Below are positions 27,400-64,000 of a stretch of 64,000 nucleotides of DNA, one piece after another (position 1 is the stretch's first letter; every line of letters begins with the position of its first letter). Origin of the DNA: Aurantiacibacter spongiae (GTDB lineage Bacteria; Pseudomonadota; Alphaproteobacteria; Sphingomonadales; Sphingomonadaceae); assembly GCF_003815535.1 (NCBI RefSeq), contig NZ_RPFZ01000001.1, positions 186,001 through 250,000 of the forward strand, in the 5' to 3' direction. Under the pieces are notes generated by a model. It saw only the letters and a program-made list of their open reading frames with translations, was not told the DNA's origin and made no database searches. The translations under genes and the position numbers were made by a program.

Positions 27400-29465
27400 C
27401 AGAAAAGCACCCAGGTGATGGCGGCAACAAGGCCCAGCAGCATAATCAGGGCGTAACTCGTGAGATATCCTGACTGCACCCGCTTTGCGAGACCGGCACC
27501 CTCCGACACGAGCCAGGCGGCCCCGTCCGGTCCGAACCGGTTGATCGTGCCCTCGTCTCCCTTCTTCCAGAACAGGCGACCGAGCCAGAACGCCGGCCGG
27601 ACGAATAGGAAATTGTACAACTCGTCGAAATACCACTTGTTGAGAACGAAGCGATAGATGGGACCGAGTTGCTCCGCCGTCTGCTCGGGCAGGTCCGTAC
27701 TTTTCATGTAGGCGAGCCAGGCGAAGAACAGGCCAGTCAGCATGGCGATGGTTGCCGACAGCTTGACCAGCACCGGAACCACCTCCGCATCGTGGAGCGA
27801 GTGCATGAAATGCTCGTTATACGCGATAGAGCCGTTCCAGAAGGACGCGGTATCGAGAAACGCCGGGTAGAAGATGAAACCCGCGAAAATCGCTCCGAGG
27901 CTCAAGACGCCAAGGGGAACAAGCATCGTCCACGGACTTTCGTGCGGATGGTAGCCCGCCGTCCCCTCGCGTTCCTCGGGTTCGGGCACCGGGTGAGCGA
28001 CCGAATGGCCGGAATCTTCCTGCTTCGCCGGATTGTGATCCTCCGGCTCGTCGTGACCGTGCCGAACGGCGTGACGTATATGCTCGCTCTCCGCCCAGCG
28101 CGGCTTCCCCCAAAAGGTCAGGAACATCAGACGCCAGCTGTAGAAGCTTGTGAGGAGGGCGGCGATTGCGCCCAGCCAGAAAGCGAGATTGGAAAAGCTG
28201 CCATTCGCTGCCCAGGCCGCTTCGAGGATGGCGTCTTTCGAATGGAACCCGGCGAAGCCCGCATGAACCCAGTACACGCCGACGCCGGTGATCGCCAGCG
28301 TACCGGCCATCATGGCCCAGAAGGTGACTGGGATCTCTTTCCGCAATCCGCCGTAATATCGCATGTCCTGTTCGTGGTGCATCGCGTGAATGACACTGCC
28401 CGCTCCCAGAAACAGCAGTGCCTTGAAGAAGGCATGCGTGAACAGATGGAACATGGCCGCGCCATAGGCGCCAACACCGGCGGCGAAGAACATGTATCCC
28501 AGTTGGGAGCAGGTGGAATAGGCAATCACTCGCTTGATGTCCCACTGCGTCGTACCGATGGTCGCCGCGAAGAAGCAGGTCGCCGCGCCGACCACCGTGA
28601 CCACGGCTAGCGCGGTCGGCGCGGCCTCGAACATAGGCGACAGGCGGCAGACCATGAACACGCCCGCGGTCACCATCGTGGCCGCATGGATCAGCGCGGA
28701 GACGGGCGTCGGCCCCTCCATCGCGTCGGGCAGCCAGGTATGCAGACCCAGCTGCGCGCTCTTGCCCATCGCCCCGACGAACAGCAGCAGGCACAGAACC
28801 GTCATCGTGTCGAACCGCATGCCGAGAAACCCGATGGTGCTCGCACCCCGCATCGCCGGAGCGGCACCCAGGATCTCGGGAATGCTCGTTGTCTGGAAGA
28901 CCAGGAACGTCCCGAAGATACCGAGCATGAAACCCAGATCACCGACCCGGTTGACCACGAAAGCCTTGATGGCGGCGGCGTTTGCGGACGGCTTCTTGTA
29001 CCAGAATCCGATCAGCAGGTAGCTGGCGAGGCCAACCCCTTCCCATCCGAAAAACATCTGAACGAGGTTGTCCGCCGTCACCAGCATCAGCATGGCGAAG
29101 GTGAACAGCGAAAGGTAGGCGAAGAACCGGCTCTGATCCGGATCCTCGTCCATGTATCCCCAGCTGTAGAGGTGGACCAGCGCCGAAACCGTGGTGATGA
29201 CGACCAGCATCACCGCGGTCAGCGTGTCCACGCGCAGCGCCCAGTCGAAGCGCATGTCCCCCGACTGTACCCATTGCAGGACCGGAGTTATCGTCGCGGC
29301 GCCATCCCCGCCGAGGTAGCCGAGAAAGATCGGCCAGCTCAGCGCGCAGGACACGAACAGCGCTGCGGTAGTGACCAGCTTGGCACCTGTATGGCCGATC
29401 ACCCGACCGAACAGGCCGGCGACAAGCGCAGCGAGAAGCGGCGCGAAAACGATGATCTGAATCAC
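27399..29465 (-). CDS. nuoL: NADH-quinone oxidoreductase subunit L
   Basis: NuoL (688 residues) is the distal proton-pumping subunit with the long lateral helix. Typical motifs are [50 protein letters not shown] and [17 protein letters not shown]. Residues ~455-508 form a hydrophilic His/Glu/Asp-rich loop (DNA 27942-28103), a variable insertion of the family. The ATG is six bases from the nuoK stop and the stop overlaps nuoM. Confidence 0.96.
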
Positions 29466-58389: not shown

Positions 58390-58443
58390 AGGTTGACTAG
58401 TTATTTTATGACGAATACGGACCCGTCTGGCAAGCGGTAGATG

Positions 58444-58479
58444 ACCCGGCGCGAGTAATCGCTGCCGGGTTCGTTTTTT
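58444..58479 (+). terminator. Factor-independent terminator / possible ilvB attenuator
   Basis: ACCCGGC-GCGA-gtaa-TCGC-t-GCCGGGT gives an 11-bp stem with one bulged T and a 4-base loop, followed by TCGTTTTTTC. This is the strongest intrinsic terminator in the window. It lies between miaA and ilvB, and only 37 bases separate its T-run from the ilvB ATG, with no recognisable promoter there. It may end miaA, or sit inside the ilvB leader as an attenuator. Confidence 0.75.
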
Positions 58480-58516: not shown

Positions 58517-60259
58517 ATGTCCGACGAACGTAGCGGTGCGGCAATCCTCGTTGAAAGCCTCGTGCGGCAAGGCGTCGAGTTCGTCTTTGGCTATCCCGGC
58601 GGTGCGGTCCTGCCAATCTACGACGAATTGTTCACCGATCAGCGAATCCGCCATATTCTGGTACGGCACGAGGCGGGAGCGGCACACGCAGCGGAAGGCT
58701 ATGCCCGATCAACGGGCAAGCCGGGTGTGGTGCTCGTCACATCCGGGCCCGGCGCGACGAACGCGATTACCGGCATCGCGGATGCCTATCTGGATTCGAT
58801 CCCCCTTGTCGTCATCACCGGGCAGGTCGCAACCAACCTGATCGGGACGGACGCCTTCCAGGAAGCCGACACGATCGGACTGACGCGCCACTGTTCGAAG
58901 CACAACTACCTGGTGAAAGATCCGGCAGACCTTGCTTCGACCATCGAAGAAGCCTTCGAGATCGCTACCACCGGGCGCCCCGGACCGGTGGTGATCGACA
59001 TACCGAAGAACGTGCAGGTCGCTACTGCCGATATGCCCGCAGGAGCCTCCTCCCGGCGCCGTCGCTACGCTCCGCAAACTGTCGGCGCGCCCGAGGAAAT
59101 CTTGCATGCCGTGGAGTTGATCGCCGGGGCCGAGCGTCCGGTATTGTACACCGGGGGCGGCATTATCAATTCCGGTCCTCGCGCCTCCGATCTTCTGCGT
59201 CAGCTGCAACAGCGCACGGGGGCGCCGGTTACCTCGACGCTGATGGGTCTCGGAGCCTTCCCGGCCGATCATCCGGACTGGCTAGGCATGCTCGGCATGC
59301 ACGGCACGCTCGAAGCCAACATGGCGATGAACCAATGCGACGTCATGGTCTGCATCGGCGCGCGGTTCGACGACAGGGTCACAGGCCGACTTGAAGCCTT
59401 TTCCCCGGGATCGAAGAAGATTCATATCGATATCGACCGCGCAAGCATCAACAAGGTGGTGCCGGTCGACCTCGGTATAGTCGGCGACTGCGCTTCGGTG
59501 CTGGAGCAGTTGCTGGAGATATGGGGCGAGCGCCGCACCGGCGATATCGGCGAATGGAAAGCGCGGATCGCCGGTTGGCGCGCGCGCGACTGCCTCGCCT
59601 ATCCCGAACGCAAGGACGAGATCATGCCTCAAAAAGCCGTCCAGCGTCTGTTCGATCTGACCCGCGAGCGCGATCCCATCATCACTACCGAGGTCGGCCA
59701 GCACCAGATGTGGGCAGCGCAATATTTCGGTTTCATGGGGCCGAACAAGTGGCTCACCAGCGGCGGTCTCGGCACGATGGGCTACGGTCTGCCCGCCGCC
59801 ATAGGGGCGCAGCTCGGCAACCCCGACAGCCTCGTGATCGACATTGCCGGTGAAGCCTCGATCCAGATGAACATCCAGGAACTTGGCACCGCGGTCCAGT
59901 TTCGACTTCCGGTGAAGGTATTTATCCTCAACAACGAGTATATGGGTATGGTTCGCCAGTGGCAGGAACTGACCTACGAGAGCCGATATTCGAACAGCTA
60001 TTCCGACAGCTTGCCGGATTTCGTGAAACTTGCCGAAGCCTATGGCTGGAAGGGCGTCCGCATCTCTTCCCACTCGGAACTGGACGAGGGCATCGCCGCC
60101 ATGCTGGATCACGACGGTCCGGTAATCGTCGATTGCCATGTGTCGAAGGACGCAAATTGCTTCCCCATGATACCGAGCGGTGCGGCGCATACCGACATGC
60201 TTCTTTATGGCGACATGGTTGCGGGCACGATGGAAGACGAAGCAAAGGCCCTGGTGTGA
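58517..60259 (+). CDS. ilvB: Acetolactate synthase large subunit
   Basis: This 580-residue ThDP enzyme makes acetolactate or acetohydroxybutyrate in valine/leucine/isoleucine synthesis. It has the catalytic Glu region VRHEAGAAHAAEGYARSTGKPG, GPGATNAITGIADAYLDSIPLVVITGQV, FDDRVTGRLEAFSPG, GLGTMGYGLPAAIGAQLG and LNNEYMGMVRQWQE. In the ThDP/Mg motif the usual GDA/GDG reads GEA (Glu446 in place of the metal-binding Asp). GGAG is eight bases before the ATG. The alternative name ilvI would be equally valid. Confidence 0.95.
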   Translation: MSDERSGAAILVESLVRQGVEFVFGYPGGAVLPIYDELFTDQRIRHILVRHEAGAAHAAEGYARSTGKPGVVLVTSGPGATNAITGIADAYLDSIPLVVITGQVATNLIGTDAFQEADTIGLTRHCSKHNYLVKDPADLASTIEEAFEIATTGRPGPVVIDIPKNVQVATADMPAGASSRRRRYAPQTVGAPEEILHAVELIAGAERPVLYTGGGIINSGPRASDLLRQLQQRTGAPVTSTLMGLGAFPADHPDWLGMLGMHGTLEANMAMNQCDVMVCIGARFDDRVTGRLEAFSPGSKKIHIDIDRASINKVVPVDLGIVGDCASVLEQLLEIWGERRTGDIGEWKARIAGWRARDCLAYPERKDEIMPQKAVQRLFDLTRERDPIITTEVGQHQMWAAQYFGFMGPNKWLTSGGLGTMGYGLPAAIGAQLGNPDSLVIDIAGEASIQMNIQELGTAVQFRLPVKVFILNNEYMGMVRQWQELTYESRYSNSYSDSLPDFVKLAEAYGWKGVRISSHSELDEGIAAMLDHDGPVIVDCHVSKDANCFPMIPSGAAHTDMLLYGDMVAGTMEDEAKALV

Positions 60260-60260
60260 C

Positions 60261-60776
60261 ATGAAGATCGAGCATCGCCATGCCGAACGGCACGTCCTCA
60301 ACGTGACTGTCGACAACGAGCCCGGCATCCTCGCCAAGATCACCGGTCTGTTCACCGCGCGCGGTTACAATATCGACAGCCTTACAGTAGCCGACATATC
60401 GGAAGACCATCATATCAGTCGCATCACCGTGGTCACCAACGGGCCGCCCCAGGTCATCGACCAGATCATGGCCCAGCTCGATCGGCTCGTGCCGGTCCAC
60501 AAGGTCGTCGATCTTACAGAGGAAGGTCCGCACGTCGAACGGGAACTTGCCCTGATAAAGGTGCGTGGTCGCGGTGATGACCGTGTGGAAGCGCTGCGCC
60601 TGGCAGATGTATTCCGCGCGCGCCCTGTCGATACCACGACCGAGAGCTTCATCTTCGAGCTCACCGGCCCGCCCGACAAGATCGACAGCTTCGTCGCACT
60701 GATGCGTGAGATCGGTCTCGTAGAGGTCGGACGCACGGGTATCGTCGGAATGATGCGCGGGAGCCAGCCAGCCTGA
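60261..60776 (+). CDS. ilvN: Acetolactate synthase small (regulatory) subunit
   Basis: This 171-residue protein (ilvH type) has an N-terminal ACT domain with HVLNVTVDNEPGILAKITGLFTARGYNIDSLTVAD and a C-terminal half with VRGRGDDRVEALRLADVFRARPVDTTTESFIFELTG. It activates the large subunit and mediates valine feedback. The ATG lies one base after the ilvB stop, so the two are co-translated. Confidence 0.95.
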   Translation: MKIEHRHAERHVLNVTVDNEPGILAKITGLFTARGYNIDSLTVADISEDHHISRITVVTNGPPQVIDQIMAQLDRLVPVHKVVDLTEEGPHVERELALIKVRGRGDDRVEALRLADVFRARPVDTTTESFIFELTGPPDKIDSFVALMREIGLVEVGRTGIVGMMRGSQPA

Positions 60777-61895
<1,119 letters not shown>

Positions 61896-61959
61896 TCCGC
61901 TGGGTGTCGCTCACCCGTGTCGGAATACGCGAGAAAACCGTTGTCGCCGCGGGCGGCTG

Positions 61960-61989
61960 TTGTTCCAGATGTAATCAATTCGGTACTTT
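61960..61989 (+). promoter_or_regulatory. Possible promoter of the leuA leader
   Basis: TTGTTC (61960-61965), an 18-base spacer and TACTTT (61984-61989) resemble a sigma-70-type promoter. A start near 61996 would give an RNA whose first ORF is the Leu-rich leader peptide at 62022. The match is partial and based on eye only. Confidence 0.35.
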
Positions 61990-62021
61990 ACCCGCGATCA
62001 CCACGCCGATAGCATGGATCA

Positions 62022-62069
62022 ATGACGCCCGCCTCGCGCCTCACCCTACTTCGACTTACGCGCCCTTAG
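62022..62069 (+). CDS. Leucine-rich leader peptide of leuA (MTPASRLTLLRLTRP)
   Basis: A 15-codon frame in the 286-base ilvC-leuA gap has four Leu codons within six positions (residues 7, 9, 10 and 12: CTC, CTA, CTT, CTT). CTA and CTT look rare in the neighbouring genes, which favour CTG/CTC. The TAG stop lies inside the 5' arm of a 12-bp inverted repeat. This is the layout of a ribosome-mediated attenuator sensing charged tRNA-Leu, placed directly in front of the committed leucine gene. The SD is weak (GGA three bases before the ATG). Confidence 0.65.
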   Translation: MTPASRLTLLRLTRP

Positions 62070-62140
62070 GCGTGCTACTTTGCCCGTTACGGCGGGACGA
62101 CGCCTAAGGGCTTTCCAACCTTCGCTCATTTCGCTGGTTG
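62062..62140 (+). promoter_or_regulatory. Candidate leuA transcription attenuator (stem-loops)
   Basis: GCCCTTAGGCGT (62062-62073) and ACGCCTAAGGGC (62100-62111) are perfect 12-bp inverted repeats around a 26-base loop that itself holds CCCG/CGGG (62083-62086, 62093-62096). AAGG (62106-62109) can instead pair with CCTT (62119-62122), and CAACC/GGTTG (62116-62120, 62136-62140) forms a later stem. So mutually exclusive folds exist downstream of the Leu codons. No strong T-run follows, so termination, if any, may need Rho. Confidence 0.6.
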
Positions 62141-62181
62141 CATTCCGATCAGCCGGTTTAGTCGAACGAGGCCGCTTTCCC

Positions 62182-63879
62182 ATGCCCATGCTCCGTAACC
62201 CGGCGGCGAAATATCGCCCCTTTCCCCAGATCGACCTTCCCGATCGGCGCTGGCCGAACCGGACGATCGACCGGGCCCCGCGTTGGCTCTCGACCGATCT
62301 TCGCGACGGTAACCAGTCGATCATCGACCCTATGGATCGCGCGAAGAAGACCCGCTTCTTCGATCTTCTCGTCGATGTCGGTTTCAAGGAAATCGAGATT
62401 GGTTTTCCTGCCGCCGGTCAGACCGAGTTCGAGTTCATCAACTGGCTCGTCCACTCGGACAGGGTGCCCGAAGACGTGGTTGTCCAAGTCCTGACCCAAT
62501 CGCGAACGGACCTGATCGGAAGGAGTTTCGAGAGTCTGGAAGGCGCGCGCGAAGCTATCGTTCATCTTTACAATGCAGTCAGTCCTGCCTGGCGCGACAT
62601 CGTCTTCCGCATGAGCCGCGAGCAGGTACGCCAGATCGCGGTGGACGGCGCGCGAATGCTGGTGGACGAGGCCGCGAAACGCCCCGGCACGAAATGGCAT
62701 TTCGAATATTCGCCCGAAACGTTCTCGACGGCCGAACTCGATTTCAGTCTGGAGGTTTGCGCCGCGGTTATGCAGGTCGTTGGTCCAACCAAGGACTGGC
62801 CGATCATTCTCAATCTGCCGGCGACGGTCGAGGCGGCAACCCCCAATATCTACGCTGACCAGATCGAGTACTTCTGCCGCAACCTTCCAGATCGGGAGGC
62901 CGCGATCATATCACTGCATACGCATAACGACCGCGGTACAGGGGTGGCGGCTGCGGAGCTTGGACTGATGGCTGGTGCTGACAGGATCGAGGGATGTCTG
63001 TTCGGAAACGGTGAGCGAACGGGCAATTGCTGCCTCGTCACGATGGCCCTCAACATGTATACGCAAGGGCTGGATCCGAAGCTGGATTTCTCAGACATCG
63101 ACAGCGTTATCGAGACGGTCGAATACTGCAATGAACTGCCCGTTCATCAGCGGCATCCTTACGGTGGGGAACTGGTCTTCACCGCGTTCTCCGGCAGTCA
63201 CCAGGATGCGATCAAAAAAGGCCTTGAAGCGCAGGAAGAGCGCAACGACGAATACTGGCGTGTGCCCTATCTGCCAATCGATCCGGTGGATCTCGGGCGC
63301 AATTACGAAGCCGTGATCCGGGTCAATTCCCAGTCCGGCAAGGGCGGGTTCGCCTGGGTATTGCAACAGGATCAGGGGCTTAAACTGCCGAAAGCCCTGC
63401 AATCCGACTTCAGCAAGCACGTCCAGCATCTTGCCGATAGCCTTGGCAGGGAACTCGATGCCGATGATATATGGCGGTGCTTCCGACAGACCTACTACCT
63501 TCAGGTTGACAGAAGAAAGTTTCGTCTCGTCGACTATAACGAAAGCAGGGCAGCCGATGGAACGCGCGTTTTCGCCGGCACGGTTGAAATCGATGGCGAA
63601 GAGAAGCGGGTTTCCAGCAAGGGCAGCGGTCTGATCTCGTCCGTTCTCGCCACGATCGGGGACAGTTTCGGCCTGGAGTTCGAAGTTGCCGACTATTCCG
63701 AGCACGCGTTGCGGCACGGCGTGGATGCGCGGGCGGCAGCCTATATCGAATGGACTGCGCCCGACGGCAGAAGCGGCTGGGGCGTCGGGATCGACCAGGA
63801 CGTCGCGACGGCCGGCGTGCGCGCCATCCTGAGTGCCGCCAATGCAGTAGCGCACGGACCGGGGACGCCCCGCTTCTAG
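62182..63879 (+). CDS. leuA: 2-isopropylmalate synthase (LeuA, long type 2 form)
   Basis: LeuA (565 residues) condenses 2-ketoisovalerate with acetyl-CoA, the first committed leucine step. The metal/substrate motif is STDLRDGNQSIIDPMD (R41-D42), with EIEIGFPAAGQTEFEF, the HxH metal motif in SLHTHNDRGTGVAAAEL and LFGNGERTGNCCLVTMALN. The C-terminal ~130 residues form the allosteric leucine-sensing domain (DGEEKRVSSKGSGLISSVL). The length and RWPNRTIDRAPRW start are those of the IPMS2 type. Two close ATGs (62182, 62188) are possible. Confidence 0.95.
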   Translation: MPMLRNPAAKYRPFPQIDLPDRRWPNRTIDRAPRWLSTDLRDGNQSIIDPMDRAKKTRFFDLLVDVGFKEIEIGFPAAGQTEFEFINWLVHSDRVPEDVVVQVLTQSRTDLIGRSFESLEGAREAIVHLYNAVSPAWRDIVFRMSREQVRQIAVDGARMLVDEAAKRPGTKWHFEYSPETFSTAELDFSLEVCAAVMQVVGPTKDWPIILNLPATVEAATPNIYADQIEYFCRNLPDREAAIISLHTHNDRGTGVAAAELGLMAGADRIEGCLFGNGERTGNCCLVTMALNMYTQGLDPKLDFSDIDSVIETVEYCNELPVHQRHPYGGELVFTAFSGSHQDAIKKGLEAQEERNDEYWRVPYLPIDPVDLGRNYEAVIRVNSQSGKGGFAWVLQQDQGLKLPKALQSDFSKHVQHLADSLGRELDADDIWRCFRQTYYLQVDRRKFRLVDYNESRAADGTRVFAGTVEIDGEEKRVSSKGSGLISSVLATIGDSFGLEFEVADYSEHALRHGVDARAAAYIEWTAPDGRSGWGVGIDQDVATAGVRAILSAANAVAHGPGTPRF

Positions 63880-63933
63880 GGGAAAGTCGCTAGTCGACCG
63901 TTTGCCATATCGCGGCGGGAGATATGCAACATG

Positions 63934-63962
63934 CTTGGCCAGTTCCGTAACCGGCCAAGAGG
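63934..63962 (+). promoter_or_regulatory. Inverted repeat overlapping a ribosome-binding site
   Basis: CTTGGCC (63934-63940) and GGCCAAG (63953-63959), with GTT/AAC inside, form a hairpin about 55 bases after leuA. Its 3' arm shares AAG with AAGAGG (63957-63962), the likely SD of the next gene. It could be a leuA terminator without a T-run, an operator, or an SD-hiding element. Confidence 0.35.
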
Positions 63963-63968
63963 TCATCA

Positions 63969-64000
63969 ATGCTCGAGCATGTCATACTGGGTGGCACCCT
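63969..64000 (+). CDS. Start of an unidentified gene (partial, runs off the window)
   Basis: ATG at 63969 is six bases after AAGAGG and opens a frame reading MLEHVILGGT that continues past the window edge. With only ten residues, no function can be given. The well-placed SD is the main support. Confidence 0.35.
   Translation, partial: MLEHVILGGT

Follow-up and report, generated by a model that had tools for sequence, protein, structure and literature searches.

A conserved Leu-codon leader upstream of leuA in Aurantiacibacter spongiae: a candidate leucine-responsive translational attenuator

The leuA locus and its leader frame

The region considered here lies between ilvC and leuA, the gene of 2-isopropylmalate synthase, in the window, which is the whole 64,000-nucleotide stretch of the Aurantiacibacter spongiae genome that was analysed. 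Its features are collected in Table 1. The leuA product belongs to the TIGR00970/NF002991 type of the enzyme, TIGR00970 being the actinobacterial and yeast type of LeuA. A short frame, encoding MTPASRLTLLRLTRP, precedes the gene and can be read directly; it is the 15-residue leader peptide with four Leu codons in six positions that the original prediction had described in front of leuA. No other among the 443 ATG-started frames of 8-25 amino acids on both strands of the window contains at least four Leu in six residues.

Table 1. Features of the leuA leader region, in window coordinates
Feature	Position	Strand	Remarks
ilvC stop	61893-61895		precedes the leader region
Promoter-like pair	61986-62013	+	-35 CTTTAC 61986-61991, spacer 16, -10 GATAGC 62008-62013; counterpart conserved in relatives
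Leader peptide frame	62022-62069	+	15 codons; read directly; core in 110/110 fetched loci
Leader ATG; stop TAG	62022-62024; 62067-62069	+	read directly
H2, leader side	62036-62042	+	CCTC 62039-62042 (including the first Leu codon) with GAGG in the minimum-energy fold
Control codons CTC ACC CTA CTT CGA CTT	62040-62057	+	four Leu in six codons
Leader Leu codons	CTC 62040-62042, CTA 62046-62048, CTT 62049-62051, CTT 62055-62057	+	
H1, leader side, TTCGACT	62050-62056	+	perfect 7-bp complement of 62160-62166
P0, local hairpin, CGCGCC-CTTA-GGCGTG	62059-62074	+	-8.4 kcal/mol
P1 stem, 5' arm	62062-62073	+	contains the stop codon; covariation
P1 stem, 3' arm	62100-62111	+	perfect 12 bp with the 5' arm
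H1, leuA side, AGTCGAA	62160-62166	+	just upstream of the Shine-Dalgarno sequence
leuA Shine-Dalgarno, GAGG	62168-62171	+	10 nt 5' of ATG 62182
leuA (2-isopropylmalate synthase)	62182-63879	+	TIGR00970/NF002991 type; NCBIfam, above curated cut-offs

For comparison, 110 leuA loci were assembled, 80 being those with the most similar LeuA among 594 candidates and 30 coming from genomes of the same genus; eight of them repeat another, leaving 102 distinct loci. A spurious short frame is ruled out by the presence of the core in every fetched locus and by the singularity of the frame among the 443. The Leu codons, whose conservation in relatives had been proposed as a check, are indeed kept across the 102 distinct loci. 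Leaders were searched with the pattern L-[R/H]-L-x-[R/K]-P plus a stop, matched in 108/110 loci, while the two outside the pattern (L047 and L108) share the DNA core but encode Phe or Ile ahead of CGA. Since the pattern fixes the amino acids, synonymous codon choice is the informative part, and in the 100 distinct pattern loci it is as follows: the Arg codon is CGA in all 100, the next Leu codon is CTT in 91 and CTA in 9, and the later codons are CGC (100) and CCT or CCC (95 and 5, respectively). The codon after Pro is TAG in 39, TGG in 56 and CGG in 5, so that the frame continues past Pro in 61/100 loci. Within a ten-codon leader window, 4-5 Leu codons are present in 94 of the 102 loci, three in seven and two in one. 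Rare Leu codons are enriched, CTT and CTA making up 47.7% and 15.8% of leader Leu codons versus 14.4% and 2.6% in 42 window frames picked by length and GC3.

The CGA CTT/CTA element (window 62049-62057 and relatives) is invariant in 100/100 loci, although in frames of the window CGA makes up 11.4% of the codons for Arg; CGA CTT is invariant even in many clades where its pairing to the leuA ribosome-binding site is missing. Additionally, one record titled Actinobacteria bacterium 21-64-8 (L059) has a LeuA 73% identical to that of the window and a Novosphingobium-like leader; the name of this record is probably wrong.

As to the possible promoter of the original prediction, an E. coli-type scan gave none, whereas the pair listed in Table 1 is conserved in relatives. 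A -35-like hexamer stands at the expected place in 100/102 loci, compared with 241/4951 control windows. The -10-like element, scored with a loose pattern and no control set, is found in 81/102 loci and begins 13-15 nt before the ATG in 65 of these. Where both elements occur (80 loci), their spacing is 17-18 in 65. A Shine-Dalgarno-like sequence precedes the leader start in only 7/102 loci. With a promoter-like pair just 5' of the leader ATG and no leader Shine-Dalgarno sequence, transcription of leuA probably begins at this ATG or a few bases 5' of it, and the transcript would be near-leaderless, the start being placed by the position of the promoter.

Hairpins and pairing of the leader with the leuA ribosome-binding site

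As originally predicted, the stop codon lies in the 5' arm of a perfect 12-bp inverted repeat, designated P1. Perfect repeats of this length with a loop of 3-60 nt occur twice in the window, P1 being one of them; the other, at window 28582-28625, is GC-rich and without a T-run. From arm to arm P1 folds at -29.2 kcal/mol (z -4.6), while the whole region 61985-62200 has a z of -2.3 only. Compensatory changes, the second check that had been suggested, were found in an alignment of the 73 less similar members, in which 11 pairs were tested: 94.4% of cells are paired, five pairs have two-sided changes and 38 cells carry them, each value being reached in 0/500 shuffles. At least 10 of the 11 positions are paired in 99/102 loci. 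The local hairpin P0 uses the strand of the P1 5' arm, which makes the two hairpins mutually exclusive. For P0, both the count of two-sided cells (21) and the covariation score are above all 500 shuffles; the number of its pairs with two-sided changes is ordinary (338 of 500 shuffles). P1 thus covaries, and P0 does so less broadly. In the mechanism favoured below, P1 would be at least a scaffold.

The alternative pairings anticipated downstream proved real, consisting of P0 on the 5' arm and of a helix between the leader and the leuA ribosome-binding site. In the window this helix has two parts. H1 has a mean pairing probability of 0.94 in the window fold and is kept, with hardly any variation, in the 21 loci of the clade having AGTCGA upstream of leuA. 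For H2, an alternative register in which GCCTCG (62031-62036) pairs with GAGG appears when more 5' sequence is folded (probability 0.02 in the window fold), so that the exact H2 register around the Shine-Dalgarno sequence differs between folds.

Compared with shuffles, the ribosome-binding site is more complementary to the leader, with mean z of -1.47, -1.58 and -0.78 in groups of 22, 41 and 39 loci. The same site is hardly complementary to the P1 3' arm (-0.60, -0.38 and -0.18 in these three groups), and its complementarity to the P1 5' arm is not above shuffles. In the TAG group the leader is also more complementary than shuffles to the region separating P1 from the ribosome-binding site (mean z -0.99). 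A switch of the 2:3/3:4 kind, in which the P1 3' arm would hide the ribosome-binding site, had been suggested by one locus (L004) and is rejected, only 9/102 loci supporting it at p<0.05.

Co-evolution of the two partners was measured by a swap test, in which each leader is matched with each ribosome-binding site and the energies of the duplexes are compared with row and column means. Cognate duplexes are 3.0 kcal/mol better than expected, which occurs in 0/2000 permutations (102 loci). Controls pairing the leader with the P1 3' arm (-0.10), the P1 loop (-0.01) or leuA coding sequence (-0.06) are near zero, while the control immediately 3' of P1 departs from neutrality (-0.51, 11 of 2000). As the controls share the phylogeny, relatedness alone is unlikely to cause the signal. 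Within clades, the values are -1.25 (21 loci, 3 of 5000), -2.42 (22 loci) and -2.70 (39 loci), the latter two with 0 of 5000 each, and in clade B (20 loci) the effect is weak (-0.99, 134 of 5000). A co-evolution map of 51 of the 102 loci places the signal between leader positions -27 to -4 from CGA and about -28 to +2 of leuA, and shows one further spot that is probably P1 itself. Compensations are legible in Novosphingobium-like loci as CTCGG/CCGAG, CTTGG/CCGAG and CTTGG/CCAAG, and in some clades the paired codons precede the Leu run rather than sit in it. On these folds and energies, the predicted sequestration of the leuA ribosome-binding site is well supported.

Output of the leader and rival readings

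The lack of a T-run noted at the outset holds in the window and in 97/102 distinct loci. At least five T in eight bases are found shortly after P1 in 5/102 loci, and 8/102 have an uninterrupted run of five T at some point from P1 to leuA; on these counts P1 is not an intrinsic terminator. Of the attenuator first envisaged, the conserved Leu-codon leader and the covarying stem stand, whereas formation of P1 as a transcription decision is not supported, the 97 loci having no T-run after it. Formation of the 12-bp stem as the event that decides the output is likewise unsupported, the P1 3' arm being hardly complementary to the ribosome-binding site. Because leader codons co-evolve with this site, translation initiation is the better-supported output.

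The main rival is transcription attenuation, in which the ribosome on the leader would pick the RNA fold and termination would occur before leuA, by Rho since there is no T-run. It would account for a leader peptide accompanied by two mutually exclusive and covarying hairpins, P0 and P1, like a pause/antiterminator pair, and it agrees with the T-rich tract of the five loci. The stretch from P1 to leuA is also richer in C than in G (0.342 and 0.222; C>G in 95/102 loci), but leuA coding DNA is similar in this respect (0.414 and 0.281). Moreover, the rival fits poorly with the 97 loci devoid of a T-run and leaves the co-evolution of leader and ribosome-binding site unexplained, while a ribosome stalled upstream would expose the RNA to Rho during starvation, i.e. 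with the wrong sign. We thus hold it unlikely as the main mode of control; Rho-dependent termination may occur as a primary event or follow from a block in the translation of leuA.

The effect of ribosome position was modelled. Ribosomes cover about 27 nt of RNA, and a 27-nt footprint was adopted after coarser masking had been tried, the latter not separating stall from stop (26 up and 17 down of 102). In the window, accessibility of the Shine-Dalgarno sequence is 0.24 in free RNA and 0.50, 0.46 and 0.41 with the footprint at the three earlier positions tested; little release is seen with the footprint at the last Leu codon (0.29) or at the stop (0.28). Relative to free RNA, a footprint at the second-last Leu position raises accessibility in 62 and lowers it in 8 of the 102 loci, and one at the stop raises it in 19 and lowers it in 14. 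Leaders placed on foreign downstream parts still gain 0.065-0.079, versus 0.134 for cognate ones; about half of the gain in these models is generic. Release of the leuA ribosome-binding site by a stalled ribosome is only modestly supported, by the 27-nt footprint and not by the coarser masking.

Given the conserved leader core, the covarying stem, the second hairpin and the promoter-like pair before the leader ATG, the leader is very probably a leucine-sensing element. We regard it as fairly probable, on comparative grounds, that it is a leucine-responsive translational attenuator working like the actinobacterial LEU element. P1 would fold and carry the leuA ribosome-binding site to the leader, with which it would pair through H1 and H2, at codons that precede the Leu run or belong to it. 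With leucine plentiful, ribosomes would reach the stop and leave, the helix would re-form and leuA initiation would be low, as it would be on ribosome-free RNA. With charged tRNA-Leu scarce, a ribosome would wait on the (earlier) Leu codons, its footprint covering the leader side of the helix; the helix would thereby be opened, the Shine-Dalgarno sequence freed and leuA translated. Comparison of the loci shows the leader frame, P1, P0 in part, the promoter position and the co-evolution of leader and ribosome-binding site, while the transcription start, stalling, the direction of control and the absence of a transcriptional decision are presumed in this scheme.

The LEU element of actinobacterial leuA (Seliverstov et al. 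2005, PMC1262725) comprises a leader frame with a Leu run and a base stem in which the Leu-codon region pairs with the leuA Shine-Dalgarno box; it has no obvious terminator and its mechanism is unsettled. LeuL1 of S. lividans is described in an extract of PMC8079986 as leaderless and without a Rho-independent terminator. A Leu-run leader upstream of leuA is found here too, and the base stem joining Leu-codon region and Shine-Dalgarno box is matched here by co-evolution, weakly in clade B. In contrast, a P1 stem with the stop codon in it and a local hairpin P0 are present here, and CGA CTT and RLxxP are absent from the one actinobacterial peptide compared, as given in that extract (MRFGLLLLSCRGEGL, PMC8079986). 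The actinobacterial element further has a conserved pseudoknot within its base stem, whereas the folds computed here were nested ones. The likeness is one of shared logic and is not claimed as homology.

Two further readings were considered. In the first, the RLxxP end and/or CGA CTT would itself stall the ribosome, as a nascent peptide or a codon pair, with leucine or another signal tuning the pause. The constancy of CGA next to CTT/CTA in 100/100 loci, including those where CGACTT is unpaired with the ribosome-binding site, speaks for it, as do the L-R-L-x-x-P frame ends upstream of leuA elsewhere in the Alphaproteobacteria. We nevertheless consider it improbable: a Pro-stop arrest is not kept in the 61/100 loci reading past Pro, the Pro-stop codons sit in P1, which accounts for part of their conservation, and the number and rarity of the Leu codons favour simple Leu hunger. 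In the second, the RNA would be the binding site of a regulatory protein and the leader frame not a sensor, as argued for the actinobacterial LEU element, in which changes of Leu codons did not fit classical attenuation (PMC1262725). The invariant and partly unpaired CGACTT could be such a site, but the open frame, its Leu-rich content and its enrichment in rare Leu codons are all kept. We consider this reading very improbable.

Distribution and related systems

A covariance model of the core gives one strong site in the genome of the window (E 1e-16), the opposite strand of which scores 0.006, all other matches being at 1.7 or above. At E up to 0.01, 106/196 genomes of the order are matched, namely 94/113 in the family of the window and 12 outside it. 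Of the 19 same-family genomes without a model match, nine were searched with TIGR00970, and none is over the cut-off, with one weak match. Same-family genomes without any TIGR00970 match are the other eight (G131, G139, G156, G171, G176, G208, G209 and G224) and G150, which has a weak model match; they may rely on a different LeuA or be auxotrophic for leucine. Eight of the 12 matched genomes outside the family were tested, and in seven the site lies 78-130 nt before a TIGR00970 match far below the cut-off, probably a bacterial-type leuA.

Across the class, CNNCGACT[T/A] occurs within 480 nt in 34/49 TIGR00970-type loci (5.0% in shuffles) and twice in 10/49 (0.08% in shuffles); some of the 34 have the motif in frames that are not Leu-rich. 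Among 20 upstream regions of sub-cut-off TIGR00970 matches in other families, hand-chosen from the matches listed, 11 contain the pattern, in 10 of 11 within frames ending L-R-L-x-x-P before the stop. Frames ending (L/G)RLxxP, with CGACTT, are also seen in L148-L155 and L214-L229 before leuA genes that match TIGR00970 weakly (probably of bacterial type). The leader accordingly goes with more than one type of LeuA.

In 5/10 of the L-R-L-x-x-P frames and 7/8 loci of other Sphingomonadales, a stem like P1 across the stop reaches significance, as against 0/19 TIGR00970-type loci outside the order (4 of 23, whose frames are shorter, were set aside). The leader core pairs significantly with RNA downstream of it in 0/23 loci of other alphaproteobacterial orders. 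Complements of CGACTT of 7-9 bp were seen by eye in L172, L169, L195 and L200. In the alphaproteobacterial loci L161-L212, with TIGR00970-type leuA, motifs lie about 90-350 nt upstream of leuA, and in several the second copy belongs to another short frame, whose end reads LRLIGG.. or LRLSGG..; the doubled motif may represent two leaders in series.

By its sequence pattern the leader looks class-wide, with the proposed mechanism supported only in the family of the window. A broader proposal, which we advance tentatively and hold to be possible rather than probable, is that the window holds one member of a class-wide leuA leader RNA of Alphaproteobacteria, so far uncatalogued, that predates the choice between LeuA enzymes and stands before TIGR00970-type and bacterial-type leuA alike. 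It would consist of a near-leaderless frame ending RLxxP, with an almost invariant CGA CTT and a stop often in a stem; ribosome position would open a leader/Shine-Dalgarno helix, CGA CTT or RLxxP would add a pausing signal, and two frames would act in series in some other orders.

For the amino-acid genes of Proteobacteria, control by a leader peptide is usually presented as a matter of terminating transcription. The enteric leu attenuator has a Leu-codon leader before leuA, in which rare Leu codons are favoured, together with exclusive hairpins and a terminator with a U-run; RF00512 (Leu_leader) is its Rfam family. A rare-Leu-codon leader before leuA and mutually exclusive hairpins (here P0 and P1) are common to both, whereas a terminator with a U-run is lacking here and the leader is probably near-leaderless. 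In ribosome-stall translational attenuators such as ermC, pausing of a ribosome on the leader opens the ribosome-binding site of the gene that follows, the signal being a drug; the freeing of a ribosome-binding site by a paused ribosome would be shared, but the signal here would be the Leu codons of a biosynthesis leader. The trpL attenuator of Sinorhizobium meliloti, as presented in an extract of PMC10117765, is leaderless, responds to tryptophan and acts by transcription attenuation yielding an sRNA. On that description it resembles the present case as a leaderless, short alphaproteobacterial frame before a biosynthesis gene and differs in its terminator, absent here.

No Leu_leader match was obtained with Rfam in ten relatives at E up to 1. 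In a literature search only PMC1262725 was close for leuA and none treated alphaproteobacterial leuA leaders, although Vitreschak et al. 2004, on proteobacterial attenuators, may contain some; an alphaproteobacterial ilvB leader peptide is cited from that work in a passage of PMC1273637. These comparisons suggest a variant of leader-peptide attenuator that works like the LEU element and matches no Rfam family. If this is true, the leader would gauge leucine and act on leuA translation by the logic of the LEU element, the mechanism of which was left open in 2005, and this question would become testable in easily grown Sphingomonadales. Annotators would gain a motif for many unannotated small frames preceding leuA.

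Other observations concern the neighbouring genes. Before ilvB (window 58408-58479), there are a 10-codon frame, MTNTDPSGKR and a stop, and, as seen by eye, a hairpin resembling an intrinsic terminator with six T after it; the frame is without branched-chain codons, and hence nothing there looks like a usual ilv attenuator. Within ilvC lie the only Rfam match of window 60000-64000 at E up to 5, to an unrelated family, and a tRNA-Gly (gcc) called by ARAGORN at window 60934-61022, which is probably a false positive.
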